Source of the DNA: Orobanche coerulescens
Lineage: Eukaryota; Streptophyta; Magnoliopsida; Lamiales; Orobanchaceae
Direction of reading: 5' to 3'
Length of the DNA stretch: 64,000 bases
Assembly: GCA_033398695.1 (NCBI GenBank)
Contig: JAWKAU010000043.1
Location: 496,001-560,000 of the forward strand
Shown here: positions 1 through 54,502 of the stretch, piece by piece
How positions within the stretch are numbered: position 1 is the first letter of the stretch
Layout: each line of letters opens with the position of its first letter
Notes under the pieces: generated by a model
Database searches by the model: none
What the model saw: the letters and a program-made list of their open reading frames with translations, nothing else
Told to the model about the DNA's origin: nothing
Made by a program: the position numbers and the translations under genes

Positions 1-120
1 AGCGCAAGACCGCGGCGTGCGTCGTGTGCGTGCGCCGTGTCGCGCAGGGATGCTCACTGCCTCGCGAAACGGTGCAAGACCCGCGGCATTCTGCGCCGTA
101 TTTGTGCGCCGTGTCGCACA
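1..120 (+). repeat. T2 5' LTR, left part (GC-rich subrepeats)
   Basis: This stretch matches the subrepeat block of the T2 3' LTR at 17211-17460, with units built on GCGCAAGACCCGCGGCATTC and ending GTGTCGCACAGGGATGCTC. It stops at GTCGCACA, exactly where T1 begins with TGTAATACCC. The matching sequence resumes after T1 at about 9696 (GCACGGGGATGCTCC). The rest of the LTR lies upstream of the window. Confidence 0.85.
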
Positions 121-2533
121 TGTAATACCCGAGATTTCTGATATGTAATTGAACCTTGTGATATTGTAATTGTTGCATTTTGATCTGAATATGATTCTCC
201 GTATTTCATGATCCAGTGTTGTTTAGCAGATGATTTCATGATTGTGACCTAAATTGTGATTCTGCGCATGTAGCGCATGCTATCGACTATATGTAGCGTA
301 CGCTAATTTGGATCCGTGGCGCACGCTATGTATGAACCTTAGCGCGCGCTACACATAGTCAGCATGATTGAGACAGGGCGGTAGGTGAGATCGGCTGCGG
401 ATCTCGGTCGGATTATGTCGGGATGAACCTGGATGGCTTTCGGGAAAAGCGAGTCAGCCTTGATAGCGCACGCTACTGATATAGGATAGCGCACGCTAAG
501 TGCCGAGTACAGTGTAGTCAGTAAGCCATTAGCGCACGCTATGAATATGGACTAGCGCGCGCTAATAATCACTTTCTATAAATAAGACAGCATCCTTTTT
601 CGTATTTTTAGCCTTTTAACTTCCCACATCCGAATCCTTGGACTTATAGAGTCATACTCTTCATCCTAAACCCTTCATATCAGCATCCTAGCCTGAGTCG
701 AAGATTGTAGATCATTGGAGATTGGTGTTCAAGCCTTCGGCGTTGGATTGCTTCGAGTTCCTCCTTGTTCTTCACTACTTTGAGGTAGGTGATTATTCAC
801 CAATATTAAGTACTATTATGAAGGACGTTTTGATCATGATTTGGAACTATCTAGTCAGTTAAATACGTATGTAGTCGAACATCATGTGTTAGAAGGATAT
901 TTTCGACGTTTCGGTACTTATTCATCGTATAATCCATTGAACCTTTTAGTGTTTGGACTCCTAAGCATATTCATGTATATTCAAAAATGATTATGACCAG
1001 TATATGGAGATTACCAAGTTCTTATGTTTTTACATAGAGGAATCATACGTTTTGGGACATGAAATGGATTGGACTTAGGATATTTTATTGAAGATCAAAG
1101 ATGAATTAGGGTGTTGTGATGATTATACGTATCCTTGTATCTCGTAGTCATTTAATACGTAAAGATCTTTCACAAACCGTATGAGCATGATATGCACGGA
1201 GATGGCATGTATAAGCACTGAAGATTTCATGAGTTTCATCACCATTAGATTAAGTTTTCTGCCCAACAGTAAACTGCCATGCACGGTTAGCGCACGCTAA
1301 GATGTGTATATTAACGTGCGCTATCGGGAATGAGTAACGTACGCTACGTTTGGTACGTAACGTACGTTATGTCATCAGGCGTGGCGATCGGTGATCGAGA
1401 GAGAGGCTGTCGATTACACGGCTAGCGTCGCTAGACTTGGTCATTTGCGTGCGTTAGCAGGCGAGGCTTAGCGCCGCGTTACGTAGAGTACGTAGCGCAC
1501 GCTAAGTAGTTCGAGGCATAATTCATTTTAGAGCTTTAGGCGTAAGCGGATTGTTAGACATTAAATGCGGCATGAGATGAATTCTTTTATTTCTTCTTAG
1601 GTCCGAGCCTTGCATAGGGGACGATCGAGGGGCGGTGACATACGGACGCGTGTCATTTGTTGGAGTATTTCATTCTTGCCATTTTCGAGGCAAGTATCAT
1701 ATGTTGAGTTTGATTTATATCGGAACTTTGATCATGCATATGGTTTTGTTCATGTTGTCGAATATGAAATTTATTTCCTTAATTTCTCGTGGTATTCATT
1801 GTTAATTGTTCGTATTGATGAACATATTGAAATGCATATATGTATGCATAGATGATTGGTTTATGGTATAAATGATCCGAGGGTCATGTGGATCTATGCT
1901 AAGGTATTTGGATCGAATGTCCACCATGCGTTGGTCAAGCGGGATCATCATGGGGATCTCTGCTTGAGGTCTTTGGATCGGCTGGACGGAGTTTTCCACC
2001 ATGCGTTGGTCATTGGGATCATCATGGGGATCTATACCAAGAAGTATTGGATCATTTGGATTACCTGTATTGTGTTGATGGAATCGTGAGGATTCATATC
2101 ATTGGATTAGATGACGGAAGTCCGTTTTGCATGTTTTATGATGCAGCGATGATTTATGTATTATGATACTTGTACTAGCATTGTTTTGCTAACCCCTTCG
2201 GGAGTGGACATTGTTTTGATGTTCGGGTAGTCGAGGAGCGGGGAAGCAACCACGATGCAAGGAGACGATGAAATGGCTCGGTGATGTGGTTGATGTTTAT
2301 TGTTATTGTTATTTGTCTTCTTTTTTCACTTTAGTACTCAGTACATGTGTTTTAATAATGTCATTTTCGATATGGTTGTATAAGTTAACTCTTTGGATCA
2401 GTTGAACCGATTACGTATTTTGAACTTGATTTGTAAGGTTGAATTATATTTGCATTTCTTTTATTTAGCCTTGTAAATCCTTACTTAAAGGGTTTACGGT
2501 ATTGTAATTATTCCGATTATCTCGGGGTGTTAC
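121..2533 (+). repeat. T1 5' LTR
   Basis: Starts TGTAATACCC and ends CTCGGGGTGTTAC. It matches 7324-9694 along its whole length. It has a cluster of 12-bp palindromes at 271-564, a TATA box at 577-584, a second palindrome cluster at about 1285-1505, a tandem duplication at about 1910-2045 (repeated CCACCATGCGTTGGTC and GGGATCATCATGGGGATCT), and the motif CTTGTACTAGC followed by GCTAACCCCTTCGGG at about 2168-2203. Length is large for an LTR but within the range known for Tekay-type elements. Confidence 0.9.
271..584 (+). promoter_or_regulatory. T1 LTR promoter: palindrome cluster plus TATA box
   Basis: Eight copies of a 12-bp palindrome or near-palindrome occur at about 271, 294, 317, 340, 464, 487, 530 and 553, with forms TAGCGCATGCTA, TAGCGTACGCTA, TAGCGCACGCTA and TAGCGCGCGCTA. 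The last copy ends 12 bases before TATAAATA at 577-584. Pol II initiation shortly downstream, defining the U3/R border, is inferred. The 3' LTR keeps the arrangement, with its TATAAATA at 7773-7780. Confidence 0.6.
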
Positions 2534-2540
2534 GAGAATA

Positions 2541-7311: not shown

Positions 7312-7323
7312 AGGGAGGAAGGA
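7312..7323 (+). other. T1 polypurine tract
   Basis: AGGGAGGAAGGA directly precedes the TG of the 3' LTR. It would prime plus-strand DNA synthesis during reverse transcription. Confidence 0.8.
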
Positions 7324-9694
7324 TGTAATACCGAGATTTACGATATGTAATTGAACCTTGTGATATTGTAATTGTTGCATTTTGATCTGAATATGATTCT
7401 CCGTATTTCATGATCCGGTGTTGTTTAGCACATGATTTCATGAATGTGACCTAAATTGTGATTACTGCGCATGTAGCGCACACTGCTCGACTATATGTAG
7501 TGTCGCTAATTTGGATCGTAGCGCACGCTATGTATGAACCTTAGCGCGCGCTACACATAGTCGGCATGATTGAGACGGGCGGTAGGTGAGATCGGCTACG
7601 GATCTCGGTCGGATTATGTCGGGATGAACACGGGCGGCTTTCGGGAAAAGCGAGTCAGCGCGGTAGCGCACGCTGCGATATAGGATAGCGCACGCTAAAT
7701 GCGAAATGCAGTGTAGTCGATGGCCGTTAGCGCACGCTATGAATATGGACTAGCGCGCTAATAATCACTTTCTATAAATAAGGCAGCATCCTTTTCGTAT
7801 TTTGACCTTTTCACTTCCCACATCGAATCCTTGGACTTAGAGAGTCATACTTCATCTAAACCCTTCATATCGACATCTGGCACAGTCGAAGATTGTAGAT
7901 CATTGGAGATTGGTGTTCAAGCCTTCGGCGTTGGATTGCTTCGAGTTCCTCCTTGTTCTTCACTACTTTGAGGTAGGTGATTATTCACTAATATTAAGTA
8001 CTATTATGAAGGACGTTTTGATCATGATTTGGAACTATCTAGTCAGTTAAATACGTATGTAGTCGAACATCATGTGTTAGAAGGATATTTTCGACGTTTC
8101 GGTACTTATTCATCGTATAATCCATTGAACCTTTTAGTGTTTGGACTCCTAAGCATATTCATGTATCTTCAAAAACGATTATGACCAGTATATGGAGATT
8201 ACCAAGTTCTTATGTTTTTACATAGAGGAATCATACGTTTTGGGACATGAAATGGATTGGACTTAGGATATTTTCTTGAAGATCAAAGATGAATTAGGGT
8301 GTTGTGATGATTATACGTATCCTTGTATCTCGTAGTCATTTAATACGTAAAGATATTTCACAAACCGTATGAGCATGATATGCACGGAGATGGCATGTAT
8401 TAGCACTGAAGATTTCATGAGTTTCATCACCATTAGATTAAGTTTTACGCCCGATGGCGCCATGTACCTGATTAGCGCACGCTAAGATGTGTATATTAAT
8501 GTGCGCTATCGGGAATGAGTAACGTCGCTCGTTTGGTGCGTAACGTCGTTATGTCATCAAAGGGAGACGATCGGTGATCGAGAAGGCTGTCGATACGGCT
8601 AAGCGTCGCTAGACTTGGTCATTTGCGTACGTTAGCAGGCGAGGCTTAGCGCACGCGTTACGTAGAGTACGTAGCGCACGCTAAGTAGTTGGCGAAATTC
8701 ATTTTTAGAGCTTTAGGCCGTAAACCGGATTGTTAGACATTCATACGGCATGAGATGAATTCTTTTATTACTTCTTAGGTCCGAGCCTTGCATAGGGGAC
8801 GATCGAGGGGCGGTGACATACGGACGCGTGTCATTTGTTGGAGTATTTCATTCTTGCCATTTTCGAGGCAAGTATCATATGTTGAGTTTGATTTATATCG
8901 GAACTTTGATCATGCATATGGTTTTGTTCATGTTGTCGAATATGAAATTTATTTCCGTAATTTCTCGTGGTATTCGTTGTTAATTGTTCGTAATGATGAA
9001 CATATTGAAATGCATATATTTATGCATAGATGATTGGTTTATGGTATAAATGATCAGGGGTCATGAGGATCTATGCTAAGAGACTGGATCGAATGTCCAC
9101 CATGCGTTGGTCGATGGGATCATCATGGGGATTTATCTTGAGGGCCCGGATCAGCGGACGGGTTTTCCACCATGCGTTGGTCAGCGGGATCATCATGGGG
9201 ATCTATACCAAGGGCATTTGGATCATTGGATTACCTGTATTGTGTTGATGGAATCGTGAGGATTCATATCATTGGATTAGGCGGAAGTCCGTTTTGCATG
9301 TTTTATGATGCCGATGATTTATGTATTATGATACTTGTACTAGCATTGTTTTGCTAACCCCTTCGGGGTGGACATTATTTTGATGTTCGGTAGCCGAGGA
9401 GCGGGAAGCAACCACGATGCAACGGAGACGATGAAATGGCTCGGTGATGTGGTTGATGTTTATTGTTATTGTGATTTGTCTTCTTGGTTCACATTAGTAC
9501 TCAAGTACGTGTGTTTTAATAATGTCATTTTCGATATGGTTGTATAAGTTAACTCTTTGGATCGGTTGAACCGATTACGTATTTTGAACTTGATTGTAAG
9601 GTTGAATTATATTTACATTTCTTTTATTTAGCCTTGTAAATCCTTACTTAAAGGGTTTACGGCGGTAATTATTTCGATTATCTCGGGGTGTTAC
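7324..9694 (+). repeat. T1 3' LTR
   Basis: Repeats 121-2533 with scattered short indels and substitutions. Many of these fall in the palindromes: a TACGCTACG-type sequence in the 5' copy reads TCGCTCG in this copy at about 8524. Long stretches between such sites are identical (for example about 7900-8170). It ends GGGTGTTAC at 9694. Confidence 0.9.
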
Positions 9695-9695
9695 G

Positions 9696-11185
9696 GCACG
9701 GGGATGCTCCTTGTCTCGCGAAGCGGCGCAAGACCCGCGGCATTACTGCGCCGTGTGCATGCGCCGTGTCGCACATGGGTGCTGTTGCCTCGTGAAGCAG
9801 CGCAAGACCCGCGACATTACTGCGTAATACGTGTGCCGGGTCGTATAGGTGCACTCGTTGACTTGCGATACGGCGATAAACACGGTCTTTGGATGGGCCG
9901 TTTTTGCGCCGTGTTTCGTCCGAGTATAAATAGGGCGGACACGGGTTTTAACCCCATTTTCTCTCCTCCTCTCGGCTCTTCACTCATTCTTGGTGATTTT
10001 GGGCGATTTCATTCGGATATTTCATTCTATCATCATCTGACTCGGAATTGGAGATTAAAGCTCGAATCAATCATCTTCCTTCCACCATTCCATCGTTGAA
10101 TTGAGGTATTTTGACATTATACCTAACTTTAGGGTTCTTGGCTAAAATTCGTTTTCCTGTCGTTTTTGCTTCGATCGATGATGGATTATAGTTGGGTAGT
10201 TGTGGTTTTATGTTTTCCTAGAACTTTAGTAGATTAATTCCAAGTTTTTCCCCTCGTTGATCGAATTTGGCCCTTATGCCCTCATAGTGTTCGATGTATT
10301 GTTCCTAAGGGTAGGACGTCGTATGATTCGTGATTTTTTAGCGGAATTGTAGTTGATTGGGTCTCTATTGTTGTTAGGATCGGGAATTGGAGTTGTTTCG
10401 GATCGAAGCCTTTTTCGTTCGTCGTCCGCTTCGTATTTTAGGAACCAAGGCAAGTACTTTATTGCTTTATATTATGACATGTATTTCGGTAATGAAATTA
10501 TGATGTTGGAGTATTGTAAGGATGTTCTCGGGGTACTCTCACCTGGGGTTGCTCGACGGGGCACATAGGGACTTGGCCGTATGGTCTTGCGCGAGATCTA
10601 CCTTCGAGGGGGTATTCTCACCTGGGGATTGGCTCGACGGGGCCCACAGGGACTTGGCCGAGTGGTCTTGCACGAGAATTACCTGGAGTGATGTTGTTGA
10701 TTGATGAAAGTTGATGGATATTCCGGTATCTCATGATTAGGTAATGTTTGATAACTGGTTTATGGAAATGCCTGTGTATTAAAATACTGTAATATTATAC
10801 TTGCACTAGCTGTTGTTGCTAACCCCTCGTTGGGGTGGAATGTTTATGCATTTCAGGTGGTACCGAGAATCAGGAGCATACAAGTGGTCCACATGGAGTT
10901 GACGGGCAGCCGAGATGTTAAGAGGCTCGAGTCAGTGTTTTGGAATGTGTCTGTTTTCATTTTATTTTAATATGTACTGGATTTCGAGTTTGTCGGTTGA
11001 GTGATGTCTTTGGATTATATTATGAATTATACTGAACTTGCACATTTTGGCCGAGGCCACGGCCCCACTTTATTTTTGTTACGTCTTCGCATTATTGAGT
11101 TATTGCGTATGTTTGTAATGTCAGCCTCGTAGGGCCTGGTGGGCCTACGACGTGTAATTACCCGTAAGAGAATTGGGGTGTTACA
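9696..11185 (+). repeat. T2 5' LTR, right part
   Basis: This continues the LTR cut by T1 and is collinear with about 17330-18783. It holds the end of the GC-rich subrepeat block, a TATAAATA box at 9925-9932, an imperfect tandem duplication of about 75 bp at 10536-10690 (CTCACCTGGGG...CTCGACGGGGC...GACTTGGCCG), and the motif TTGCTAACCCCTCGTTGGGG at about 10815-10836, which can fold into a short CCCC/GGGG hairpin. It ends GGGGTGTTACA. Confidence 0.9.
9925..9932 (+). promoter_or_regulatory. T2 LTR TATA box
   Basis: TATAAATA follows the GC-rich subrepeats in a conserved context (TTTCGTCCGAG before, AGGGCGGACACGGG after). The same context is found in the 3' LTR at 17536-17543. It would drive element transcription, but this copy is separated from its upstream part by T1. 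Confidence 0.6.
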
Positions 11186-11189
11186 TTTA

Positions 11190-16997: not shown

Positions 16998-18783
16998 TGT
17001 AATATACGTACCTTTATTTTCGGTTTATTTATTATTGTTCGTTTGTTGTTGTTTACCTCGGACCGTTAGGTTTATTGGATATTATTTCTTCGTTGCTTGT
17101 ATTTTTCTCGAGGCCGTTGGATCGGCTTGTCGTGTTGTGGTCTTACCGTCTTTTTCAGTTTTGGTAGCGTCGTCATGCGGCAGGAAACTGTCTGGAATGA
17201 CCTGTGCAAAACGGCGCAAGACCCACGGCATTCTGCGCCGTGTCGCACAGGGATGCTCACTGCCTCGCGAAACGGCGCAAGACACGCGGCATTCTGCGCC
17301 GTGTCTATGCGCCGTGTCGCACAGGGATGCTCATTATCTCTCGAAACGGCGCAAGACCCGCGGCATTCTGCGCCGTCTCTGTGCGCCGTGTCGCACAGGG
17401 GTGCTCGCTGCCTCGTGAAACGGCGCAAGACCCGTGGCATTCTGCGCCGAGTCGCACAGGTGCACTCGTTGACTTGCGATACGGCGATAAACATGGCACT
17501 GGATGGGCCGTTTGTTGCGCCGTGTTTCGTCCGAGTATAAATAGGACAGACACGGGTTTTAACCCCATTTTCTCTTCTCCTCTCGGCTCTTCACTCATTC
17601 TTGGCGATTTTGGGCGATTTCATTCGGATATTTCATTCTATCATCATACAACTTGGAATTGGAGATTAAAGCTCGAATCAATCATCTCCGTTCCACCATT
17701 CCATCGTTGAATTGAGGTATTTTGACATTATACCTAACTTTAGGGTTCTTGGCTAAAATTCGTTTTCCTTTCGTTTTTGCTTCGATCGATGATGGATTAT
17801 AGTTGGGTAGTTGTGGTTTTATGTTTTCCTAGAACTTTAGTGGATTAATTTCAAGTTTTTCCCCTCGTTGATCGAATTTGGCCCTTATGCCCTCATAGTG
17901 TTCGATGTATTGTTCCTAAGGGTAGGACGTCGTATGATTCGTGATTTTTCAGCGGAATTGTAGTTGATTGGGTCTCTATTGTTGTTAGGATCGGGAATTG
18001 GAGTTGTTTCGGATCGAAGCCTTTTTCGTTCGTAAATCCGCTTCGTATTTTAGGAACCAAGGCAAGTACTTTATTGCTTTATATTATGACATGCATTTCG
18101 GTAATGAAATTGTGATGTTGGAGTATTGTAAGGATGTTCTCGGGGTACTCTCACAGGGGTTGCTCGGCCAGGGGCACACGGGGACTTGGCCGTGTGGTCT
18201 TGCGCGAGAGCTACCTTCGAGGGTATTCTCACTGGGATTGGCTCGGCGAGGCCCACAGGACTTAAGAGTGGTCTTGCACGAGAATTACCTTGAGTGATGT
18301 TGTTGATTGATGAATGTTGATGGATATTAGGAATATCATGATTATGTAATGTTTTATAAGCTGGTTTTTGGAAATGCACGTGTATTAAAATCTTGTAATA
18401 TTGTACTTGCACTATTTGTTGTTGCTAACCCCTCGTTGGGGTGGAATGTTTATGCATTTCGTGGTGCGAGAATCGGGAGCATACACGTAGTCCACATGGA
18501 GTTGACGGGCAGCCGAGATGTTAAGAGGCTCAGTCGGTGTTTTGGAATGTGTCTGTTTTCATTTTATTTTAATATGTACTAGATTTGAGTTTGTCGGTTG
18601 AGTGATGTCTTTGGATTATATTATGAATTATCTTGAACTTGCACATTTTGGCGAGGCCACGGCCCCACTTTATTTTGGTTACGTCTTCGCATTATTGAGT
18701 AATTGCGTATGTTTGTAATGTCGGCTGGTAGGCTGGTGGGCCCTACGGCGTGTAATTACTCGTAAGAGAATTGGGGTGTTACA
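16998..18783 (+). repeat. T2 3' LTR
   Basis: A 1786-bp LTR from TGTAATATACG to GGGGTGTTACA. It has four GC-rich subrepeats of 60-73 bp at 17211-17460 (core GGCGCAAGAC..GCGGCATTCTGCGCCG), a TATAAATA box at 17536-17543, a tandem duplication at about 18147-18290, and the conserved GTTGCTAACCCCTCGTTGGGG motif at about 18420-18441. It is complete and gives the reference for the interrupted 5' LTR. Confidence 0.9.
17536..17543 (+). promoter_or_regulatory. T2 3' LTR TATA box
   Basis: TATAAATA in the same context as 9925-9932, downstream of the GC-rich subrepeats. Transcription from this LTR would read into the LINE remnant. Confidence 0.55.
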
Positions 18784-19887: not shown

Positions 19888-21790
19888 TGTCATACGTGCC
19901 TAGGCGTGCTAATATTATTGTTTAGCGCACGCTAATCATCCTTCCTTAGCGCCGCTGCGCTTGCTGGTAGCGCGCGCTAGTGAGTTGAGACACAGGAGTG
20001 GCGGTGAGCACTGTTTACGATTTGATCCTCTAGACTAACGGTTTAGCGCATGCTACGTTTGTATAGCACACGTTATTGTTGAGGTCTAGCATGCGCTAGT
20101 CGTCCGTAGCGCGCGCTAGCGACGGTCGATCTTTGAGCGATTTACTCTGGACTAGGTCATGTGCCCAGGTAGCGCACGCTATAGCCCGATAAGCGCGCTC
20201 ACGAGGCTGTTAGCGCACGCTAACGTGGTCAGGTGAGTACTGGGCAGTTTACTTCTGAACTCAGTTGATGTCCGGGTAGCGCACGCTATGGCCCGATAGC
20301 GCGCGCTACCGAGACGCTGTTAGCGCACGCTAATTCCCGATAGCGCACGCTAACGGTCCAGAACTTTAAATCCTGGACTGGGGTGTTAGCGTTCTAGACT
20401 GGGTTATTAACCGATAGTGCACGCTAACTTGTGTATGTTAGCGCACGCTAATGCCTCTGGTTATAAAAACCAGAGAGTTAACCTGGAATAGTTCATTTTC
20501 TTCTCCTCTTCTTTTCTCGGCCGAGAGTTTGGTGATTTGGGCGATTGGAAACTTGGACTGAGGCGATTATCATCATGTATTCAAGATCTTGAGTCTCTAG
20601 CACCAGATTATCATCATTTAATCATCCTCCACCTCTTGAATCAAGGTAAACCTTCTAGAACCCTACTTTTTGGGGAAAATTGGGGGTTTTCGCATTTTGG
20701 TCCGATTCGTTCCGTTTTGTTGATTAATCCTTGATGGATATGATTAATCTTGTTGATATTATTAGTTTTCCTACGGATTCATGGTATATTTCGTAATTTT
20801 GCGTAGTCGAGAGGGTTTGGTTGTGGTCCACCCTCGTTGTTGTTCATATTCGAATATACATGAATCGTAGGCGGGTTTTCGGGTGTATTCCATTTCCGTA
20901 TTCGTTTAGAAATGGTTGTAATTGTATTCTTCGAATCGCTAGGTTCGGTTTCGTCGGTTCCTTGCGGTCGTGTTTGATTCTTCCTTTCCATTCGTGTCAC
21001 CGTTTATTGATTGAGGCAAGTACCCTTATGAACTTACAATCTTGACATGTTAGTTTTGCATGAGAAATTGTGTGTGTGTGTGTATATGCTCACTACGGGT
21101 TAGATCCGACGGGGTCTTGGTAGGGGTCCACAGAGGTGTGGATCGACGAGCTTTGCTTTTAACCACTACGGGTTAGATCCGACGGGGTCTCGGTAGGGGT
21201 CCACGGAGGTGTAGATCGACGGTTAATTGTGGTGCATTTTACAAATGTGTTTTGGATTATGGCGTTTCCGGAAATGTGTGTTTTAACTGATGTTTTCTGA
21301 ATTGCATGCTTGACTATATGTGTAAGGTGTAAGTTGTTCATTTGGTTACTTGTACTAGCCTAATTGCTAACCCCTCTGGGGACCCGTTTTGGGGAAATTC
21401 TTATTATGAATTTCAGGTCAAGTTCTCCGAGACGAGCAGGCGCTGGACGATATGCGGATGATGGTCGTGCGTGATGATTGTGCACGAGTAGTGTCTTATT
21501 ATTTTCTACCTTTTTACCGTTTGTGGACTTGTAAACTAATAGAAGTACTCGAGTACTTAGGAGATTCTTGTTTGACCGGATTGTATTGTTGTCTATTGTG
21601 TTTGTGTCGGATGATTGTGTTGCGTTTGACCGGTTGAACCGGGTGGATTATTTTTGTGTTGCGTCTTTATGACGAGGTGTTATTTTGTTGTTTCCGCGAG
21701 TCGATGAGTATGTTGGTCGTTTAGCCTGGTGGGTCCCATGTAGGGATTCACGGCGCTGTAATATACTTCGAATATCTTGGGGGTGTTACA
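19888..21790 (+). mobile_element. Lone Tekay-like LTR T3
   Basis: The right end GGGGGTGTTACA and the internal order match the T1 and T2 LTRs: palindrome cluster, TATA-like box, tandem duplication at about 21092-21222 (CACTACGGGTTAGATCCGAC, GGTAGGGGTCCAC twice), then CTTGTACTAGCC with TTGCTAACCCCTCTGGGG at about 21347-21380, then CAGGTC and an end region. No PBS or internal region follows. The left border is approximate: sequence changes from LINE at about 19876-19888, and TGTCATACG at 19888 is the nearest TG start. No target duplication is seen, so it is a solo LTR whose flank was later rearranged, or a truncated element. Confidence 0.7.
19924..20467 (+). promoter_or_regulatory. T3 LTR promoter: dense palindrome cluster plus TATA-like box
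   Basis: About 15 copies of TAGCGCACGCTA or variants (TAGCGCGCGCTA, TAGCGCATGCTA, TAGTGCACGCTA and shortened forms) lie in 530 bases, often in alternating GCAC/GCGC pairs 20-25 bases apart. The last one, at about 20441-20452, ends eight bases before TTATAAAA at 20460-20467. The arrangement repeats that of the T1 LTR although the sequences between motifs differ. Confidence 0.55.
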
Positions 21791-22596
21791 AGGAGTTCAT
21801 TCGACGATAGAGACGTCGAAAGCCAAGTTAGTACCTCGTCTCACGATGAATTATTTGAAGCATTTGAACTTTTACATACCGATTTTCAAAATGCTTTAAT
21901 TGATAATAAATCCCTGAAAGCAAAAAATAAACTATTGGAAATCAAAATTTCCAAAATAAATGAAAAAGGGAAACTTATTGAAATCAATCATTCTAAATGT
22001 CTTGAAAATGAAAATAAATTAAAGGATGATCTTTTGAAAGTTCAAAACGAACTTAATGTTTTAACGAATAAATTTTCTTGCGGAAATAACAAATTTGAAC
22101 AAATACTTTCCGTATAAAATTTTTTATTAAATAAATAAGGGTTAGGATTTAAACCGTGTAATAAAACGAATCCTTAAATTTTAAAATACCCCGATGTGGG
22201 AAATGTTTAAAACTTGGGCATCATATTTCAATTTACAAAAGCCCAAAACAGGCGGTAAAAATTAAGAAAATTTGGATTCCTAAAGGAACCACTATACCGA
22301 ATATCGTCTATGTTTCAAAAGAAAAACCAACTCTCGGTTGGATTCCCAAAAATCAAAATTAATATATTTCCATCAATTGTTATTTTGGTAATTTATATTT
22401 TTAACAAATGATATTTAACTCAGGGGGAGTTATCATTATTTTTAAATGAGGAAATCTATTTTTCAGGGGGAGTTTTTTACCCGTAATTTGTCATATTTAA
22501 TTATTCATCGATATTATTGTTATTATGCACTTTTTGATTATGACAAAAAGGGGGGGAGAAAGTCGAGAAAAATGATGGGAAAAGGAAAATACGAGT
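21791..22596 (+). pseudogene. Copia element C2, left part: gag C-terminal remnant and 3' spacer
   Basis: A 61-codon open stretch at 21935-22117 (MEIKISKINEKGKLIEINHS, then KLKDDLLKVQNELNVLTNKF) looks like the coiled-coil segment of Sirevirus-type Copia gag. At about 22257-22362 the frame encodes KKIWIPKGTTIP and TLGWIPKNQN, matching a short segment found before the protease in C1 (about 26075). Pol is missing. Sequence passes directly to a spacer with repeated CAGGGGGAGTT (about 22422 and 22466) and GGGGGGAGAAAG, typical of the 3' untranslated region. C1 inserted at 22597, and C2 resumes at 38281. C2 is therefore an internally deleted element. Confidence 0.6.
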
Positions 22597-23789
22597 TGTT
22601 GGGATAATAAATACCCTGTATCGAAATTGTTGGGATAACAATATCCGGTATCGAAACAGTCAGGATAAACAATCCATGTATCGAGATGTAGTGTTATGAT
22701 GTTTTGACAATAAGCGATCCGGATACTGATAAACAAGCTGTATCGAAAAGCTGAAGTGTCAACTTTGTATCAAAGACTGTCATAGATCCGGCATACAGTG
22801 GAACCTTTTAGTCTGCAAAGAAGTCTTATAAAGACTAAGTATGGAAGCTGTCTCGAATTGTCAATACGGTGATCCATCCATCTGACTCTCAACGGGACAA
22901 GAAGGAATCTTGATGTCGCTAGAAGTCAAGTCCGTTGATAAAGAAGTATTTAAATACTAAAGGATAAAGTATTTAAATACTGTAAGTCGGAAGATCTACA
23001 AATCCCGCAATATCGGATCTCGGTCGAATGTATGTTGTCACGAGAATCTTGCCCAACGGATAGATTTCAAGCGGATATATTTGAGACTATATATATATCT
23101 CGAGTTTGAAGATTAAATAGGGCTGAGCGATTAATCTTACGAGCGACTTACAAGCGATCAAGCTTACAAAGAAATATTGAGCAAAACATATCTCCGAGTT
23201 CACTGCTATTCGGATATAAGAGATATACAAGTGCTCAAACCGTGAACAACACTTCATCGGCTAGAAGCTCGAGAAAGTCAAATTTGTTGTTCATATATTG
23301 TTCTAATCCTTGAACAAACCCAGATCAGCCTGTGTGGTGAGTAATCTTTGCTTCTCGGCGTATGCGAAGGATTTGCATCGAAGAAGATGAAGCTTGAGCG
23401 TGTGTGAAGAAGCTTGATCAAGTGTTAGCTCAAACCAATCTGTGTGAGCGGTTGAAGCTAAGATCTTTATATCAATTTGTGTGAGCGATATATTGATTGT
23501 GTGTTGTTATAATTACGTAGTTGTGTACGCTTGATAATTATAATAAACTTTACTCTGTGTGGAGGGCGGTGGACGTAGAGGGTTTACCTCGAACAACTTT
23601 AAATCTGCGTTATTTACCTTACGCCTTACTTGTTTTATTAGCTGTGATTATTTAAGTATACTGCATATCGAGTTCTTTGTATCCACATCAACTACGTATT
23701 TAAGACTTCCGCTACGTACTCGGATTTAAAACCGTACGACTTATAGTTTAAACCACTTTCAGTGTATCCAGTATACTTAGTGGCCAACA
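22597..23789 (+). repeat. C1 5' LTR
   Basis: TGTTGGGATAATAAATACC to GTGGCCAACA, 1193 bp. It pairs with 37058-38280. Differences between the two are mainly short and concentrated at CAG, CCA and CTG sequences (for example GACCAGTGGACG in the 3' copy against GGCGGTGGACG here). Confidence 0.9.
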
Positions 23790-23791
23790 AG

Positions 23792-23803
23792 TGGTATCGG
23801 AGC
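23792..23803 (+). other. C1 primer-binding site
   Basis: TGGTATCGGAGC follows the LTR end by two bases and resembles the initiator tRNA-Met complement TGGTATCAGAGC with one A to G change. Confidence 0.8.
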
Positions 23804-23898
23804 GGTTGATTCTAAAAAGAATCAGTCGTATTTTTAACTGAATCAGATCCAAAATCACTTAATTTTTAAAACAGACTTTTTCATTCCTTTATTCTCAC

Positions 23899-26160
23899 AT
23901 GGATACATCTATGATCAACAAAGTACCTATGTTCTCTATTAATGAATTTGATGATTGGAGAATCAGGATAGCGGCTCATCTTGCAGCAATGCACGAAGAG
24001 ATTATTTTTGTTATACAGGATGGCCCCATCAAGATAATGAAGGTAAACACGGCCGCAAGGATTGAAGGCCAAACCCATGCTGAGATGCTCGAGAAGGAGC
24101 GTGAACAATGGACCACAGATGAAAGAAAGCGCGCCAATCTCGACAATGTGGCTAAGAACGTGTTATTTGTCACTCTTGACAAAGGCACGTTCTCAAAGGT
24201 AAAGAGCTGTAAAACAGCCAAGGAAATCTGGGATAAACTCAAGTTGATTTGTGAGGCCGAGGCTCTCAAAAGAAAACAAAATTTCAAAGCTGACTCAGCA
24301 ATTTGAATCTTTTGAAATGAAACCAAGTGAGACACTTGAGAACTTGACCTCGGATTCTTGGTATTGTTGGTGAACTTGAAGCTTTGGGCAAAATTTATAC
24401 CCAAAAGGAGAAGAATTTAAAAATTTTCAGATCTCTCCCTGCCCGATGGGACATTAAGACCACAGCTATGCATGTGTCTTGTAATCTAAATGAAATATCT
24501 ACTTCTCTGACCTCAAAGCTTTTGAGTATGATATTGACAGAAGAGAGAAAGCTGAAGAATCTCCTTCAAAGGTTACAGCACTAGCCGCTGTATCGAACCA
24601 TCGACATAGCATGCCCAGCTCGTCGAAGCCCAGTCACAAGAATTCTGACAGTAACGACGACATCCTGTCTAAAGATGAAATGGCGCTTCTCATGCAGAAG
24701 TTCAAGAAGTTCATCAAAGAGTCTGGAAAGACTCCCTACAGGCCCAAACCTATCCACAAGGTAAGTACCGAAACTTCATCCGGTGATGCTAACCTGTGCT
24801 ATAATTGCAGGAAACCGGGACATTATGCAAATAAATGTCCTCATCCCAAAGTTCAAAGGTTTCCGGAGGCCGAGCAACAAGAGAGAGATGTAAGAAGACG
24901 TGCTTGGAAAAACAAGCTCAAGGCTCGATTGGAGAATCGAAGCCTCCCCACACCATCGAAATCTAAGAATGTCTTGGTGGTCATGAAAGTGATTCATCGA
25001 CAATGAGTTCGATGATAAAGCATATATGTGCTTTATGGCCAAGGACATTAGGAAGGTGAAGATAGCGATGATGAGGTAAGCTCAACCTCGGCTATTCCAT
25101 TAAATGCATCTCATACTTTTGAAAACATGATAAATGAGTTTAAAAACATTCAAAAGGCCCATGAAACATTGAAAAATGAGAATATACTGACTCCAATTGT
25201 CTAACCTAGAGTGAAAGATGAAAATGACTTCTTTGAAAATAAATTATGAAAATATGTCTATTGATTGTGAAACCAAAGAAAGTCGATTATGAAAAACTCA
25301 TGGAGAGCAATCATCAACTTGCTCATGAACTAAGTGAGGTTAAAACTCACAATGAGAGCAAGACAAATGATTTTGTTCTACTTCAAGCCAAAGTCAAAAC
25401 TCGAAAAGCGAGAAGATGAACTTGAGACCATTACGAAATCGTTAGAAATCGTCGAAAAGAATGGAAGAAATTGAGCACCGGGCAACATGCTCATGATAAA
25501 AGTGGATTAGGATACGGCTCATGTTCAAACAAAGGGAAAACTAGTACGGTGTTTGTCAAGAGTGTGGAACACATTCTGTTTGAAAGATACCCTAGTCTGT
25601 GAAGGAACCTGCTGCACTGCGAAAAGAAAGCTGCCATTCCGCCACCGCAATCCTATTCAGCAATGGAATCACCGCCATTCGGACTGAAAGGCGCACTCAA
25701 CAACATGCTCCCGAGCCTATCAAAGCGCCAGCGGCGTTCGAAGGAAGGCGTATCCAAATATCAAAGGCCCGCACGGCGATCTTATCGATGCACGGCACGC
25801 CTAGGTATTGGATACGGGAGCCCGTTATTCTTGAGGCAGCAGATGTCGCACAATATCAACAACGGCATTGGGAATCAGTGGAGACCCGGAAGGCAAGCTG
25901 TTAGGCCAAAGAAAATGGCTCCACCTCCAAGACGGCACTTGTACTGGACTAATAATAATAACCCTGAATTTTGCATGCATAACAACTATCATGGTTATAG
26001 CGACTACGTATATGCCCCACGTAGATACCGCAACACTGTACCGAATGTGACCTACAGTAAACCAATTCTGTCGGGAAAATTTGGGTACCTAAAGGCACTA
26101 ACATTCATGGACCCAAAAATCAAAGGGGACCTAAATCTACTTAATCTCTTTGCATACTGG
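23899..26160 (+). pseudogene. C1 gag, frameshifted
   Basis: The start ATG at 23899 gives MDTSMINKVPMFSINEFDDW, the Copia gag beginning, with the UBN2-type region continuing to 24303 (FSKVKSCKTAKEIWDKLKLI at about 24191-24250) before a frame break. A second piece at 24384-24560 has LPARWDIKTTAMHVS. A CCHC zinc knuckle CYNCRKPGHYANKCPHP lies at about 24798-24850. A coiled-coil-rich, repeatedly shifted tract follows to 25560, as in Sirevirus gag. Near 25600-26100 comes a basic low-complexity stretch and the sequence GKFGYLKAL, equivalent to the KIWIPKG segment of C2. Gag forms the particle and binds RNA. It is not translatable as one frame. Confidence 0.7.
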
Positions 26161-27773
26161 ACATCATAGAGGAGAACATCTGGTACTTCGATGGTGGATG
26201 CTCTCGGCACATGACCGGAGATAGAAGCAAGCTATCAGATTTCGTAGAAGGTCGCGGTCCAAAAGTTCGCTTCGGTGATAAATCTAAAGGAAGAACAAGA
26301 GGAAAGGAAACCTTCTTGTAGGAAAATTCAAAGTCACCGATGTTGCATATGTTGAAGGCTTACGGTACAATCTACTTAGTATTAGCTTGATTGTGATAAA
26401 CGGTTCTCGGTGAAATTCTATATAGATCAGAGAGTCAAGAACATCCAGACCAAAGAAGTTGTGCTTACAGAAGCAGATCGGGTAACATGTATATTCTTGT
26501 TTGGAAGCTATGAGCTCTGAATTCCATGCTTTGTTGCCAAAGGCACTGAGATCTAAGCTAGTTATGGCACAAGAGGATGTCTCATGTCAACTTCAAGGCG
26601 ATCAACAAGCTCTCAAGATAGGGAATGGTAAGAGGATTGCCAAGCGTGTCATTAAAAAAGGACGTCTGCGGACCTTGTCGAAAGGCAAGCAAATCAAGTC
26701 GACCACGAAGAGCAAATCCTACCTTTCAACCCAAAGAGTGTTGGAGATGCTACATATGGATCTCTATGGTCTGTAGACACAGTAAGTTTGGGAGGTAAGA
26801 AATCTTGTCTTGTTGTTGTTGATGATTACTCAGGTATGCTTGGACAATCTTCTTAAGCAAGAAGAAGGAAACAACATCAAAGTGCCCGAGCTCTGAGAAA
26901 GCTTCAAAATGAAAAGACATTGAGTATCGTGTCCATTCGTTCCGGCAGTGCAAATTTACTAAGCGCTTTATAGAGCAATCATTCGGAAAATGGGATACGG
27001 CACGAATACTCATTGCCGTACACCTCAACAAAATGGTGTTGCCGAAGCGAAAGAATAGGGCGTTGAAAGAAGCAACAAGGACAATGATTGCCGCAAGCAA
27101 GTTGCCACAACGTTTGCAGGGTGAAGCAACCAATCTGACATGCTACACTCAAAACCGCTGCATCGTCAACAAGCACCACAACAAAACAGCATACGAGGTA
27201 TGGAACAACAAAACTCCGTTAGTTTCATATTTTCACATTTTCGGATGCAGGTGCTATGTGTTGAATAATGGGAAGGATCAACTTATAACCTTTGATGAGA
27301 AATCAGATGAAGGAATATTTGTAGGATACTCCTCCGTCAGCAATGTTTACAGGATCTTTAACAAAAAGAAGCTGACGATCGAGGAATCAGTTCATGTAGT
27401 GTTCGACGAACCTCACCATGACCCTACAGGAGTAGAAGATGTTAATCAGAACATCCAACAACTCTCCATCCTAGATCCACCAACTCCCATAGAACCTGTT
27501 GTTGACCTAGAAATCAACCCCGCAGCTGTAAGAATCGACGTAGATGAAGCCGATGCTGTACAAGCTGAAGCTGTATCTACAGAAACTCTAGATACAGTAT
27601 GGGACCCTGAATTAGAACCCGACCGAAGATGGTTGAGAGATCACCCGCAAGAGCTGATCATTGGAAATATAGATGCTGGTGTTTCTACTCGAAGGAGAAT
27701 ACAGAGTACACAAGGAAATGTACTGTGTGCACAAGAAGAACTAGATACTGAGAAATCACCATTTCCTGAATGA
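26160..27773 (+). pseudogene. C1 protease and integrase, frameshifted
   Basis: The protease active-site region at about 26180-26215 reads WYFDGGCSRHMTGD. The usual Copia motif is D-S-G, so Ser is replaced by Gly next to the catalytic Asp. The GAG-pre-integrase and HHCC region (26500-26760) is only partly readable (HMDLYGL at about 26752). The core Asp is in VVVDDYSG at 26813-26836. The TPQQNGV-like segment lies at about 27020-27040. The C-terminal part is open from 27033 to 27773 (KNRALKEATRTMIAASKLPQ, HIFGCRCYVLNNGKDQL, GIFVGYSSVSNVYRIFN), which is the Copia integrase C-terminal motif before RT. Function: insertion of cDNA. Stops and frameshifts disrupt the core. Confidence 0.75.
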
Positions 27774-27803
27774 AAATCTCAATCCGAGCTTAGAAGACTC
27801 AAC

Positions 27804-29363
27804 ATGTGCACTATTGATGTATTCTTAGCCCAGTCCGAACCTGTTTCGACCATAGACGCTCTTAATAATTCTCATTGGATAACATCTATGGAAGAAGAGC
27901 TTAACGGTTTCGAAAGAAACAATGTATGGTATCTTGTACCCAGACCTACGCATCAATCGGTTATAGGAACCAAATGGGTATTTCGAAACAAGAAGAATCG
28001 AAATGGACTAATCATAAGGAATAAATCCAGACTAGTCGCACAAGTACATAGGCGGGAAGAAGGCATAGACTATGATGAAGCGTTTGCCCTTGTAGCGGAC
28101 TAGAAGCCCTTAGGCTATTCTTAGCCTTTGCCGCCCATAAGAGCTTCATCGTGTACCAAATGGACGTCAAAAGTGCATTCCTGAATGGAGACCTTGCCGA
28201 AGAAGTTTATGTTGAACAACCACCAGGGTTTGCCAACACAGATGGCATCGACCTAGTATACAGGCTAAGGAAAGCCTTTGTATGGACTTAAGCAAGCCCC
28301 TAGAGCTTGGTATGAGACCACTGTCGATATCTAACCGATAATGGATTTGAGAAAGGTCTTGTGGACAAGACCTTGTTCAAAATACAGGAAGGTGATGACC
28401 TTCTAATGGTGCAAATCTATGTAGATGATATAATTTTTGGTCCAACTAACCTTGCTCTGTGTCAAAGGTTCTCTCATCTCATGCAAAGTAAATTTGAAAT
28501 GAGTATGATGGGAGAACTTAGTTATTTCCTAGGTTTGCAGGTAAAACAGTTGCCTACAGGGATTTTCATCAACCGGAAAAATCTGACAAGGAGCTTCTCA
28601 ACAAATTTGGAATGAACACTTCCAAATCATCGTCAACCCCCATGAGCACTTAGTGCATATTAGTCTTGATGAAGCCGGAAAGCCGGTTGACCAATCACTC
28701 TGAGGAAGCTTATTGGCTCACTACATACCTAACGGCTAGCGAGGCCCGATATCCGGTTCTTTGTTGGAGTGTGTGCGAGATATCAAGTAGCACCCAAGGA
28801 ATCACACTTCAATCTGACTAAGCGAATCTGAAGTATATTAAAGGAACAATCGATGTAGGACTGTGGTATCCTAAAGAAGGCGGATTCGATTTAGTTGGAT
28901 ACAGCGACTCGGATCTCAGAGGCTGCAAGCTAGATAGGAAGAGTACAAGTGGAACTTGTCACTTTCTTGGACCTAGACTGGTTTCTTGGTTCAGTAAGAA
29001 GCAATTGGCAAACTCACTTTCCACGGCTGAATCAGAATACTATGCTGCTGGTAGTTGTTGTATACAGATCATTTGGATGCAGCAACAGTTGTCAGATTAT
29101 GGGATTGAAGCCAAGGAAACGCAATCATGTGTGATAGCACGAATGCAATTGCAATCACGCACAATCCTGTATTGCACTCACACACTAAGCATATCAACAT
29201 GAAGCATCATTTCATAAGGAATCATGTCGAGAACAAGGATGTCCGGCTCGAAAAAGTTCATACAGATATTCAGTTGGCCGACATCTTCACCAAGCCTCTC
29301 GACACAACAAGATTCAACATGCTTCGACAAGATTTGGGATTGCTACAGCCTGACTCCCTGTAA
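27804..29363 (+). pseudogene. C1 reverse transcriptase and RNase H, frameshifted
   Basis: The Copia RT begins with HWITSMEEELNGFERNNVW and VIGTKWVFRNKKN (27850-28000), a frame break at 28101, then VYQMDVKSAFLNGDLAEEVY at 28152-28210. The catalytic box QIYVDDIIFG at about 28411-28440 is intact. RNase H is shown by GYSDSDLRGCKLDRKSTSG (from about 28898), TAESEYYAAGSCCIQIIWMQ at about 29023-29082, and a final open piece 29127-29363 with HTKHINMKHHFIRNHV and LADIFTKPLDTTRF. The order and motifs are typical of Sirevirus pol. At least four frame changes break it. Confidence 0.8.
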
Positions 29364-30134
29364 GTATTTACTGTTTTTACTCAACAATTGAGGGAATCTT
29401 TGTAAGATCGAAGAATACTGTATCCACCATTAATTATCTGTACACTCGAACCGTCAATACTGACTGTAGTGAACAAAGATATATGAATCATCCTACGGTG
29501 GCGTGTGCGATAATTAAGGGGGAATACGGTATGACCCATGAATACGACATTAATCCAAAAGTTCTGTATGGAATTGAAACCTATATGTACCTTTTAAGGG
29601 GGAACGTCATCGTCATGATACAGCACATACTATAGGATTTCGATTCAGTGTATATATATTATATTATAATATTTCATTTTAAAAATAATTTTTGTCCACG
29701 TGCCCTGTTTTCATGTCAAACGTCATTTACATTAAATGTCTTACACGACATCTGGACAATCAAATCTCAAAAGCCGCGATGTTTTTAAATTGTTTAATGT
29801 TTAAAACCGTCGTTTCAGGCATTAAGGGTAACAACAAATGTCAGAAGTGGGACCCGCTCATATTTTAAAACTCAATGGATTAGTGTACCAGTTACACTCA
29901 GTTCATCTTGACCGTTCATTTCAAACGTCGGTTCCCATCCCTTAAATCTGACCATTCGTTCTCTGAGAAACCCTTCATCGCCGCCCACTATAAAAGGACT
30001 GAAATTGCCATTTGAGACTCTTTACGCTTTCTGCATATTTTTAGAGCACTCAAGCAAATACAGCCTACAAGTTTTCTTTGCGTTTTACTGCAAATTTCTC
30101 TTGATCTCTTTCATTTTTTTCTTGAGATTCATCA
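29364..30134 (+). other. C1 spacer between pol and env-like ORF
   Basis: No coding signal. Contains AAGGGGGAA at 29517-29525 and 29597-29604 (purine tracts), an AT-rich block at about 29655-29690 and CTATAAAAGGACTG at about 29989-30002, followed by TTTAGAGCACTC and a pyrimidine-rich leader up to the ATG at 30135. The TATA-like box about 145 bp before that ATG could be an internal promoter for the env-like ORF. This is inference from position only. Confidence 0.4.
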
Positions 30135-30198
30135 ATGGCGTCTGCTCAGACCTCTGCCACCGCCCTCAAGAAAGCCTCGAACATCATTGACGGATGAA
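30135..30198 (+). pseudogene. C1 env-like ORF, first codons, cut by C3
   Basis: The ATG at 30135 lies in context ATCAATGGCG and starts MASAQTSATALKKASNIID. The sequence then runs into Copia integrase sequence of C3 at about 30199-30230. The remainder of this ORF continues after C3 from 34288. The assignment as the start of the env-like ORF rests on position (after pol, after a leader) and on the coding sequence that resumes on the other side. Confidence 0.5.
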
Positions 30199-32440: not shown

Positions 32441-32459
32441 TTGAGTGCAAGTGGGAGAT

Positions 32460-36563: not shown

Positions 36564-37057
36564 AATCCTTAGTATATTATTTTTGTTTGTAATTTACTTT
36601 CAAAACAACAATCATTGTACTATATTTTGAATATCAATAAAATGTTTGCTTGTCTTGAAAGATTACAACTCGTAATCTACCGTGTTATTGTATGATTACG
36701 TACTTAAATTTAATTGCTGAAATTAATCACAAGTATAGAAACTTGTTTAAAAATTAAGCTGTGTGAACTTGTCTACGAACAGTTCATAGATTCAGTTGTA
36801 TGCATCTAGAATACATTGTAAGATTGTGCCTGCGCGCCAATCATAAGCTTAAGTCAGAAAAACTCTTAGTCATGTCGAACTCGCTCATGAAAGTTCATAA
36901 ATTAGACTAAGTTGCTGAAAGCCAGATCATTCGACAGAAGACCATGATATCTACCCGAAGTCATCAAGAAGGTTATTCGCTTCATGAAAAAGGTTTTGGC
37001 ATCATCAAGAAGACTTGAAAGATTTAAGTCTTGGCAAATTGTCAAAAATGGGGAAAT
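36564..37057 (+). other. C1 3' untranslated spacer and polypurine tract
   Basis: Non-coding AT-rich sequence with AATAAA-type signals at about 36635-36642. It ends with the purine-rich AAAAATGGGGAAAT (37044-37057) directly before the LTR start, the likely polypurine tract. Confidence 0.6.
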
Positions 37058-38280: not shown

Positions 38281-39795
38281 CGAGTCATGGAAAAATGACG
38301 TGAAAATCAAAAACAATACCCGATCATGAAAGGGGGAGAAAAGACGAAGGAGAAGAAAATCGAGAAAACGAAGAATAAAGTTGAAAAAAAAAATGAAGAA
38401 GTCGAAAAGAAGAAAAGAAAAATGGGGAGATGAAAACTAACGAAACTGACAAAGTCGAAAACTTTGATATGTAATTATTTTAATTTTCACGTATATAATC
38501 CCATCGAAGATTGTTGTTTTGTCATCATCAAAAAGGGAGAGATTGTTGGAGTATTATATTCCATATAATAATAAATTGGTTTTGATGATGAGTTGATGAT
38601 TAGCTAATAATGTTAGTGATGGTTTTGATGATGAGTTGACGTTCAAACCAAAACAACAAAGGATTCAATAGAACGAACCAGTCAGTCAAAGTCACCTGAT
38701 CAGACCAGATGGGAAAAGTCACCTGATCAGACCAGATGGGAAAAGTCACCTGATCAGACCAGATGAGAAAAGCTAACTGATCAGATCAGACGAGAAATAG
38801 TCACTTGATCAGCTAACGTACATAATGTAGATCGAATAACGTACGTAATGCGAAAGTCACCTGAAGGCAGATGGGTGCAGACGACATGAGTTAACGTACG
38901 CAACACATAGAAGAATAACGTACGCTAAGGCATGGAAGCTAACGTACGTAACGAGTTGCCCATAATGTACGTAATGAGTTTGAATACATATTCAAACAAG
39001 GAACCGTTAAAGATGACGTCATGGAGTAGGTCAACATGCAACGGATATTTTGACTGAAGATAACGTACGTAAAAGAGTTTTATATAACATACGTAAAGAA
39101 ATATACAGAAGCTACTGGTCTATTTCGTATGAAGCCTAACATACGTAACAGGAGGAGGATAGCATACATAACATGTATAACGTACGCTATAGATAAAGAC
39201 TAACGTACGTAATGAAGTCACCAGGAGCTAACGGCTAGTTGTGGCTTTGGAGCCTATAAATACCACTTCTAATGGTATTCAACATACAACAACTTCAAGC
39301 AATCGTATCATTGTATTCATTATTGTTGTTGTATTGTGCTAAATTGATAAGTGTTTGAGTGTTCATACACTAAACCATACACGAGAGGAAAGATACGGAT
39401 TGTAGATTGATTCAGTATTATTAGGATCGTTGATCCGGCATTGTTAGAATCATATCTAAATATGAGTGGGGTTTGTCTAGTACCTATCAAAAGCTAGATA
39501 GGTTGCTTCCTTGTCCGATAGAAAGGGAAAACAGTTTATCTTGGACCGACATAAAGACAAGAGTGTAACGATTTATCTCGGACCGATAGAAGACGAGATT
39601 GTAACGGTATCCCTCGGACCGATAGAAGACGAGGCGCAAAGGTTGATCTAAAGCCTAAGGAAAAAGATACGAAGAGAGGATGTAGGCACGTTTGGCCGAA
39701 CCTCTATAAATCTTGTGTCATTTTCTTTCCGCAAGTTAACTACGCTTCCGCAAAGCAAAAGAGTTTGAAAACTCTACTCCGTGATATTTTCCACC
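38281..39795 (+). mobile_element. Copia element C2, right part: polypurine tract and 3' LTR
   Basis: 38281-38543 is purine-rich 3' spacer ending CATCATCAAAAAGGGAGAGAT, the classical Sirevirus/Copia polypurine tract. The LTR starts at 38544 with TGTTGGAGTATTATATTCC. It has four to five tandem copies of a 27-bp unit (AGTCACCTGATCAGACCAGA core) at 38690-38815, a cluster of TAACGTACGTWA-type palindromes at 38813-39215, and TATAAATA at 39255-39262. The right border is uncertain: TTTTCCACCA at about 39787-39796 is the nearest CA end before RNase H-like coding sequence. C1 split this element. Confidence 0.65.
38813..39262 (+). promoter_or_regulatory. C2 LTR promoter: TAACGTACG palindrome cluster plus TATA box
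   Basis: About a dozen copies of TAACGTACGTAA, TAACGTACGCTA or one-base variants lie between 38813 and 39215. TATAAATA follows at 39255-39262. This Copia LTR therefore has the same layout as the gypsy LTRs T1 and T3: short palindromes with ACG/CGT arms just upstream of the TATA box. Confidence 0.55.
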
Positions 39796-53025: not shown

Positions 53026-53028
53026 GAT

Positions 53029-53040
53029 TGGCGCTAGAAG
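53029..53040 (+). other. Tat element primer-binding site
   Basis: TGGCGCTAGAAG starts three bases after the LTR end. TGGCGC-type sites are used by Tat/Athila elements rather than the tRNA-Met site of chromoviruses. The specific tRNA is not assigned. Confidence 0.65.
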
Positions 53041-53085
53041 TAGGGCCCCTCGAACCTTCGATAAAAAATATACTGCTCACCGGAG

Positions 53086-54491: not shown

Positions 54492-54502
54492 CCAACCTTG
54501 CC

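Follow-up and report, generated by a model that had tools for sequence, protein, structure and literature searches.

Regularly spaced arrays of a 12-bp near-palindromic word in Copia and Gypsy long terminal repeats of Orobanche coerulescens

Three long terminal repeats (LTRs) within a 64,000-nucleotide stretch of Orobanche coerulescens DNA (contig JAWKAU010000043.1, positions 496,001 to 560,000; the whole stretch is called the window below) carry rows of one short near-palindromic word next to their TATA boxes. One of these LTRs belongs to a Gypsy element (T1), one to a Copia element (C2), and the third (T3) stands alone. The question raised by this locus is how elements of two superfamilies came to hold the same word in the same place, and what the word may do there. 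The sites form regularly spaced, directional arrays, common to Copia and Gypsy LTRs whose spacers are unrelated, and they probably serve as rows of binding sites for a dimeric host protein.

Site arrays, their words and spacing

The original prediction placed clusters of 8-15 copies upstream of TATA in the three LTRs, and this is what we find: T1 has 8 sites, T3 has 14 and C2 has 11 (matches to TARCGYRCGYTA with at most two mismatches), followed by TATA 12-43 bp on. A further T1 array, unlisted there, is present in both LTRs of the element (1288-1504 and 8473-8683), 0.7-0.9 kb 3' of TATA, with GCGC-type and ACGT-type words as neighbours. The arrays and TATA boxes are as follows.

271..564, forward strand: T1 U3 site array, 8 sites at distances of 23, 23, 23, 124, 23, 43 and 23
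577..584, forward strand: T1 TATA box TATAAATA, starting 13 bases past the last site
1288..1504, forward strand: second T1 site array, downstream of TATA, 6 sites here and usually 7-8 in genome copies
19923..20450, forward strand: T3 site array, 14 sites at distances of 20, 23, 24 and longer
20462..20468, forward strand: T3 TATA box TATAAAA, starting 12 bases past the last site
38814..39212, forward strand: C2 3' LTR site array, 11 sites, mostly TAACGTACGTAA
39255..39262, forward strand: C2 TATA box TATAAATA, starting 43 bases past the last site

The window contains 29 exact copies of TARCGYRCGYTA, while sequences simulated with first-order and with third-order Markov models (100 for either order) have 0.01 on average; copies with at most two mismatches number 56, compared with 13.7 expected. 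Exact fits to the pattern first proposed number 6 in T1, 10 in T3 and only 2 in C2, as the commonest C2 word is TAACGTACGTAA. The observed/expected ratio of CpG is 1.37-1.77 in the three U3 clusters and 1.95 in the second T1 cluster, versus 1.27 in the whole T1 LTR and 0.99 in the window; the GC content of the C2 cluster is only 0.38. Recurring near-palindromic 10-mers were also looked for in seven more stretches of the window, including T2, C1 and further LTRs or repeats, and none of these surpassed what the best among ten simulated sequences gave.

Genome counts, all made in the window's own 3.65-Gb assembly, show the same word at very high copy number. The exact 12-mer TAGCGCACGCTA occurs 1,017,744 times (510,633 + 507,111), versus 56 (23 + 33) for its reversed control and 23 (13 + 10) for TACGCAGCGCTA, which has the same dinucleotides. 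For TAACGTACGTAA there are 242,758 copies (121,110 + 121,648), versus 14,628 (7,184 + 7,444) for the reversed control. First-look candidates for places matching the LTR stretches number 11,594 for T1, 9,666 for T3 and 9,111 for C2, of which 40 each were scored and matched. In a sample of fifteen 10-kb stretches (150 kb) with coordinates fixed beforehand, TARCGYRCGYTA is found exactly 101 times (673 per Mb) and arrays are present in 8 stretches, while five permuted degenerate patterns gave 6, 0, 0, 0 and 0 matches. Viral contigs contain two isolated pairs of the GCGC word, no ACGT word and no arrays, and are therefore uninformative on breadth.

The general form of the site is the dyad TWRCG-N2-CGYWA (pattern TWRCGNNCGYWA), found 147 times in the sample and 36 times in the window. 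Equal abundance outside LTRs, which would have refuted the original prediction, is not seen in the sample and the window: 146 of the 147 sampled matches, and all 36 in the window, lie in arrays of three or more, and 11 of 13 sampled arrays with at least four sites adjoin a TATA. Dyads with a centre of 0, 1, 3 or 4 bp are nearly absent; for each of these the sample has 0-1 matches and the window 1-2. Among other patterns counted in the sample, TWRGCNNGCYWA has 1 match, AWRCGNNCGYWT none, TWYCGNNCGRWA 8, and WTRCGNNCGYAW, which overlaps the motif class by design, 14.

The spacing is similarly constrained. Of the 35 distances between neighbouring sites in the window, 17 measure exactly 23 or 24 bp, where 20,000 null simulations gave 1.6 on average and never more than 8; the excess is seen in each of the four arrays tested, being least in T3 (p = 0.017). 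The commonest distances in the sample, where related arrays are counted too, are 23 bp (54 times) and 24 bp (29 times). The sequence between sites is unrelated, as originally claimed: where neighbouring sites are 22-24 bp apart, spacer identity, measured over the first 10 bases, is 27.4% within arrays and 26.5% between them, with 26.1% expected, while site identity is 88%. With spacers no more alike than chance predicts, tandem copying does not account for the regular spacing, and duplication of 23-bp units was rejected on this ground.

Scanning the 150-kb sample for any recurring palindrome yielded a second word, TTACGGCCGTAA, with 184,551 genome copies versus 83 for its reversed control; together with TAGCGCACGCTA and TAACGTACGTAA it brings the total to about 1.4 million exact copies. 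It fits TWRCGNNCGYWA and contains the CGG-CCG signature of described Sirevirus motifs. Its arrays lie in two sampled stretches, L041 (3546-3700, five sites at distances of 23, 42, 23 and 23) and L047 (9776-9997, sites about 23 bp apart), and neighbours among the 71 listed unique places are most often 22 bp (9 times) or 23 bp (6 times) apart. The spacing is thus roughly kept while the word varies.

The sites are directional rather than symmetric, with the CA-centred (or AA-ended) form pointing at TATA. The quasi-palindrome of the original prediction is accordingly a near-palindromic dyad, as claimed, but with a direction. In particular, CA-centred imperfect palindromes in one direction make up 5 of 8 sites in T1 U3 and 10 of 14 in T3. 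In the T1 3' LTR, TATAWA starts 34 bases past the last site, because the last site there lost two bases. For sampled arrays of at least four sites (13 arrays), the side of TATA was predicted from the CA-centred or AA-ended form, and TATAWA follows 12-42 bases past the last site on the predicted side in 11 of the 13 (chance expectation 0.076 in 45 bp). Because related arrays and LTR pairs are among them, the 11 are not independent cases. One array (L038_1838) is tied in direction (3 and 3), its side being assigned by default, and another (L040_7631) has a second TATAWA 54 bp away on the opposite side.

Sharing between Copia and Gypsy elements

The elements of the window that carry or lack arrays are located as follows.

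121..2534, forward strand: T1 5' LTR (Gypsy), 93% identical to 7323-9695, with PBS-like (primer-binding-site-like) TGGTATAAGAGC at 2541
7323..9695, forward strand: T1 3' LTR, holding the two arrays at 7474-7739 and 8473-8683
9696..11186, forward strand: LTR of T2, a Gypsy element related to T1, without an array
19904..21790, forward strand: T3 LTR, 5'-truncated or solo, ends GGGGTGTTACA
38534..38541, forward strand: C2 polypurine tract AGGGAGAG, then AT, 10 bp 5' of the LTR as in Sireviruses

By sequence, T1 and T2 are Gypsy elements: the T1 internal region matches RNase H and integrase pieces of T2 (tblastn), and T2 has the domains RT_RNaseH, Integrase_H2C2 and SH3_Tf2-1. They are probably chromoviruses; a weak Chromo match of T2, in a neighbouring frame interrupted by stops, lies below the Pfam cut-off. 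T3 consists of one LTR and has no coding region of its own here; judged by the LTR ends only ("gypsy-like"), it is a putative Gypsy member. Many genome copies of T3 align starting at query base 5-10.

C2 is a Copia element of the Sirevirus type, with its 3' LTR starting at 38544. On either strand of the window AGGGGGAG occurs only at 22422, 22465 and 38331, all in the stretch read as the C2 linker, and the polypurine tract at the LTR junction, AGGGAGAG, is a variant of it. The linker is split by C1 (Copia, approximately 22596-38280, LTRs 91% identical), with CGAGT on both sides. No site array was found in C1 or T2. Immediately 5' of the C2 site array there is a 27-bp tandem repeat (4.6 copies, 38688-38812) with CTGATCAG palindromes.

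With motifs masked, the T1, T3 and C2 clusters have no mutual blastn match at E 0.01. This and the chance-level spacer identity agree with the earlier statement that shared LTR ancestry does not explain the sharing between Copia and Gypsy. No recently copied block common to the three LTRs was found, and a shared-block origin is not supported by these comparisons.

The sampled stretches extend the sharing to further elements. In L037, two LTRs separated by some 7.7 kb both contain arrays, and between them lie Gypsy gag, reverse transcriptase (RVT_1), RNase H and zinc-binding Integrase_H2C2, the integrase core match being below cut-off. In L046, the array lies in an LTR starting just after AGGGGGAG-AT (-TGTTGA); this junction, with two more AGGGGGAG copies upstream, identifies the element as a Sirevirus. 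With the gag of L037 as the query, tblastn finds Gypsy-like gag pieces close to the arrays of L047 and L041.

After masking of motifs, the sampled arrays fall into three groups (L037/L038/L040_6309/L042; L035/L046; L039/C2). Short matches between masked groups are 34 bp at 94% for L046-C2, 32 bp for L039-L046, 104 bp at 73% for the L037_8868 flank and L047, and 89 bp at 72% for L042 and the T1 3' LTR. Moreover, the order of distances differs among arrays of distinct families. The comparisons support a word common to Copia/Sirevirus-type LTRs (C2, L046) and Gypsy LTRs (T1, L037), apparently with no common block.

Possible function of the arrays

The fixed dyad with its tolerant centre, the regular spacing, the direction and the adjacency to TATA resemble site rows of a dimeric transcription factor. 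We consider it rather probable that the arrays are enhancer-type rows of binding sites, through which a host DNA-binding dimer drives LTR transcription. One host protein, or a small related set, would occupy the arrays, acting as a dimer on TWRCG-N2-CGYWA and stimulating transcription from the adjoining LTR TATA box. Neighbouring dimers would mostly be 23 or 24 bp apart, slightly more than two helical turns, probably binding cooperatively, with the directional half YACGYWA facing TATA. Copia Sireviruses and Gypsy elements would have independently acquired and retained the same arrays, because access to the factor yields new copies. That the activator is of host origin is suggested by the word being shared by Copia and Gypsy and by L037, which has no domain-bearing protein beyond gag and pol. 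Among the options of the original prediction, the best supported is that of a single, as yet putative host factor whose binding sites several elements exploit.

Variation among T1 copies is consistent with constraint on the sites. In the 30 T1 copies (of 40 scored) that keep the site positions, with LTR stretches 90-96% identical, every one of the eight sites in U3 is retained by 28-30 copies. Apart from CpG, 116 site columns have 7 shared and 31 single variants, while 312 spacer columns have 95 shared and 102 single ones (p = 2e-8 per column), a test weakened by the inclusion of both LTRs of one element and by the definition of site columns through presence. With all columns included, the contrast of shared and single variants between sites and spacers has p = 3e-4 overall and p = 8e-5 in the second array. 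CpGs of the T1 LTR are deaminated in 7.8% of cases at sites versus 10.7-12.0% elsewhere (p = 0.007).

Several observations weigh against a transcriptional role or limit the support for it. Site columns were defined by copies keeping the site, which biases them towards conservation. Compared with flanks (78 shared and 118 single variants in 631 columns without CpG), the depletion at sites has only p = 0.055, and in U3 alone, CpG columns included, the shared/single contrast between sites and spacers has p = 0.22. Four of the six arrays in the window precede TATA, while the two downstream arrays of T1 do not; two sampled arrays (L037 8868-8949 and L046 8514-8769) have no TATAWA ahead, and for the L041 array, made of the second word, there is no more than a TATA-like stretch. 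Phasing of the longer distances with the helix is strong in the mixed set, but with one array per family p is about 0.02, and it is hence not claimed. Finally, the absence of arrays from C1 and from T2, the Gypsy element related to T1, indicates that they are not needed by every family.

A close rival, to which we give a rather low probability, is that the arrays are anti-silencing sites, bound by a sequence-specific protein of the elements or the host that strips silencing marks, by analogy with VANC; families would share the word because such a protein acts in trans. As described in the available part of the source (PMC5735166), the short motifs bound by VANC21 are clustered in non-coding DNA, and those of VANC6 are also found in the unrelated AT9TSD1. 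The slightly slower decay of site CpGs fits this explanation but is equally explained by selection on the sites. Moreover, among the open reading frames (ORFs) that L037 has between its LTR arrays, counted from 120 aa upwards, those with a Pfam domain are gag and pol, and the remaining three match none; VANC targets are tandem repeats (PMC5735166, in the part available) while the spacers here are unrelated; and the strong TATA adjacency and the direction better suit a promoter element. Hairpins feeding small-RNA silencing through RNA or single-strand structure, as proposed for maize Sirevirus palindromes, seem improbable. The maize palindromes are small-RNA hotspots according to the accessible sections of two papers (PMC5311732; PMC10760457), and folding is better than in shuffled sequences for the T1 cluster (z = -4.1) and the T3 cluster (z = -4.0). 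For C2, however, z is only -1.7, and repeated near-palindromes give better folding anyway, while pairing neither favours CA-centred imperfect palindromes in one direction nor requires the 23/24-bp spacing.

The shared sites, spacing and direction would also be expected if recombination or template switching had carried one array from one LTR family to others, with spacers decayed since. The neighbouring GCGC-type and ACGT-type words of the second T1 array and the few short matches linking groups (such as L046-C2) agree with such an origin, which we nevertheless regard as quite improbable: the masked T1, T3 and C2 arrays share nothing, distances are ordered differently in distinct families, and spacers are at chance identity. 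Given the 90-96% identity of T1 LTR copies, spacer decay alone would have to be old. Least of all do we expect a Z-DNA, cruciform or CpG-methylation-sensing structure without any sequence-specific factor. The central eight bases of TARCGYRCGYTA do alternate purine and pyrimidine and include two CpGs, but ATRCGYRCGYAT, with an equal alternating core and other flanks, has no exact copy in the 150-kb sample, versus 101 for TARCGYRCGYTA, and the non-alternating TTACGGCCGTAA forms like-spaced arrays. Arms of 6 bp are too short for stable cruciforms, and direction and fixed spacing also speak against the cruciform or Z-DNA structure offered in the original prediction. A methylation-sensing site, also among its options, is conceivable.

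A broader and more tentative version of the host-dimer explanation is that one trans-acting dimeric factor, possibly transposon-derived or linked to anti-silencing, serves many large Copia and Gypsy LTR families of this plant lineage, which would have converged on a few 12-bp words (TAGCGCACGCTA, TAACGTACGTAA and TTACGGCCGTAA) arranged by one grammar of spacing and direction; we hold this to be doubtful. If a common factor exists, its binding in the nucleus would be mostly on transposons, and the specificity of the factor and that of the elements would evolve together. Copia and Gypsy, without common LTR ancestry, would have converged on one promoter code, and a 12-bp word would have reached about a million copies through its usefulness to parasites. 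The system would allow direct tests of why an LTR family succeeds and of how a transcription factor behaves amid about a million likely sites, and the exact word and spacing should ease isolation of the factor.

Relation to described motifs and other repeats

The original prediction knew of no element with this layout, which was an error: the repeated motifs of Sireviruses (Bousios et al. 2010) have it. These are high-copy palindromic LTR boxes shortly upstream of TATA, CpG-rich and with unrelated flanks, whose clusters fall on CpG islands; in the available sections of that paper they are reported as Sirevirus-specific and not found in classic Copia, with a CGG-CCG core in all but Tnd-1 (PMC2829016). 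The boxes described here likewise are palindromic, high-copy and located in the LTR just 5' of TATA. In the Sirevirus layout (PMC2829016, same sections), a polypurine tract stands 10 bp ahead of the 3' LTR and is repeated in the linker. This is found in L046, with exact AGGGGGAG and two more copies, and in C2, with the variant AGGGAGAG and three copies of AGGGGGAG in the stretch read as its linker. Sirevirus boxes were also described before the envelope gene (PMC2829016, as far as available), and L046 similarly has extra boxes by an extra ORF.

This ORF (7372-8481, reverse strand) is upstream of the Sirevirus-type LTR and has a sub-cutoff match to PF20167; the small site array at 8514-8769 is directly upstream of it.

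In contrast to the Sirevirus motifs, the core here is TWRCG-N2-CGYWA, CGG-CCG being absent from TARCGYRCGYTA and present in the second word, TTACGGCCGTAA. The arrays are not confined to Sireviruses, occurring also in Gypsy elements (both LTRs of L037, and T1), and they have 23/24-bp spacing and direction, neither of which is mentioned in the available sections of the Sirevirus paper (PMC2829016). We had not previously met a second array like that of T1, the direction or a grammar of two words. One word and spacing common to Copia and Gypsy, at such a copy number, did not turn up in searches of openly licensed literature, and a literature search for the words returned no transposon paper by title.

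The VANC targets of VANDAL elements, as presented in the available parts of two papers (PMC5735166, PMC10398659), are also short many-copy motifs in non-coding transposon DNA, with the word differing among related groups and one word also present in an unrelated transposon. They are, however, tandem repeats in elements encoding VANC, whereas here the arrays are in LTR elements, have unrelated spacers and adjoin TATA, and no encoded factor was found in L037, the one element examined.

As for the binding protein, the NAC family is a weak lead as a candidate. NAC sites have a CGT core and are often inverted repeats, with half-sites of the listed palindromes 4-7 bp apart, and the right half-site here, YACGYWA, resembles [AG][CT]ACGCAA of ORS1 (PMC4106437, in the part available). 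Of the NAC half-site TTRCGTR/YACGYAA, the form YACGYAA is present in AA-ended sites, chiefly of the C2 type. Unlike the NAC palindromes of that source (PMC4106437, same part), the sites here have a fixed 2-bp centre, with two CGs 4 bp apart start to start.

Other palindromes and repeats were seen as well. In L045 (5944-6378), CTGATCAG has eight copies, seven of them within a regular 54-bp tandem repeat. In L043 (3354-9506), TATCGGCCGATA-like palindromes with a CGG-CCG core are scattered (six by the degenerate pattern, ten within two mismatches) and form no dense array. In the window, a 74-bp tandem repeat (3 copies, 17234-17453) borders the T2 3' LTR, and pieces related to it occur at 2-120 and 9696-9824; a 50-bp tandem repeat (4.1 copies, 57379-57582) comes right after the integrase ORF of a Gypsy element at 52329-61082.

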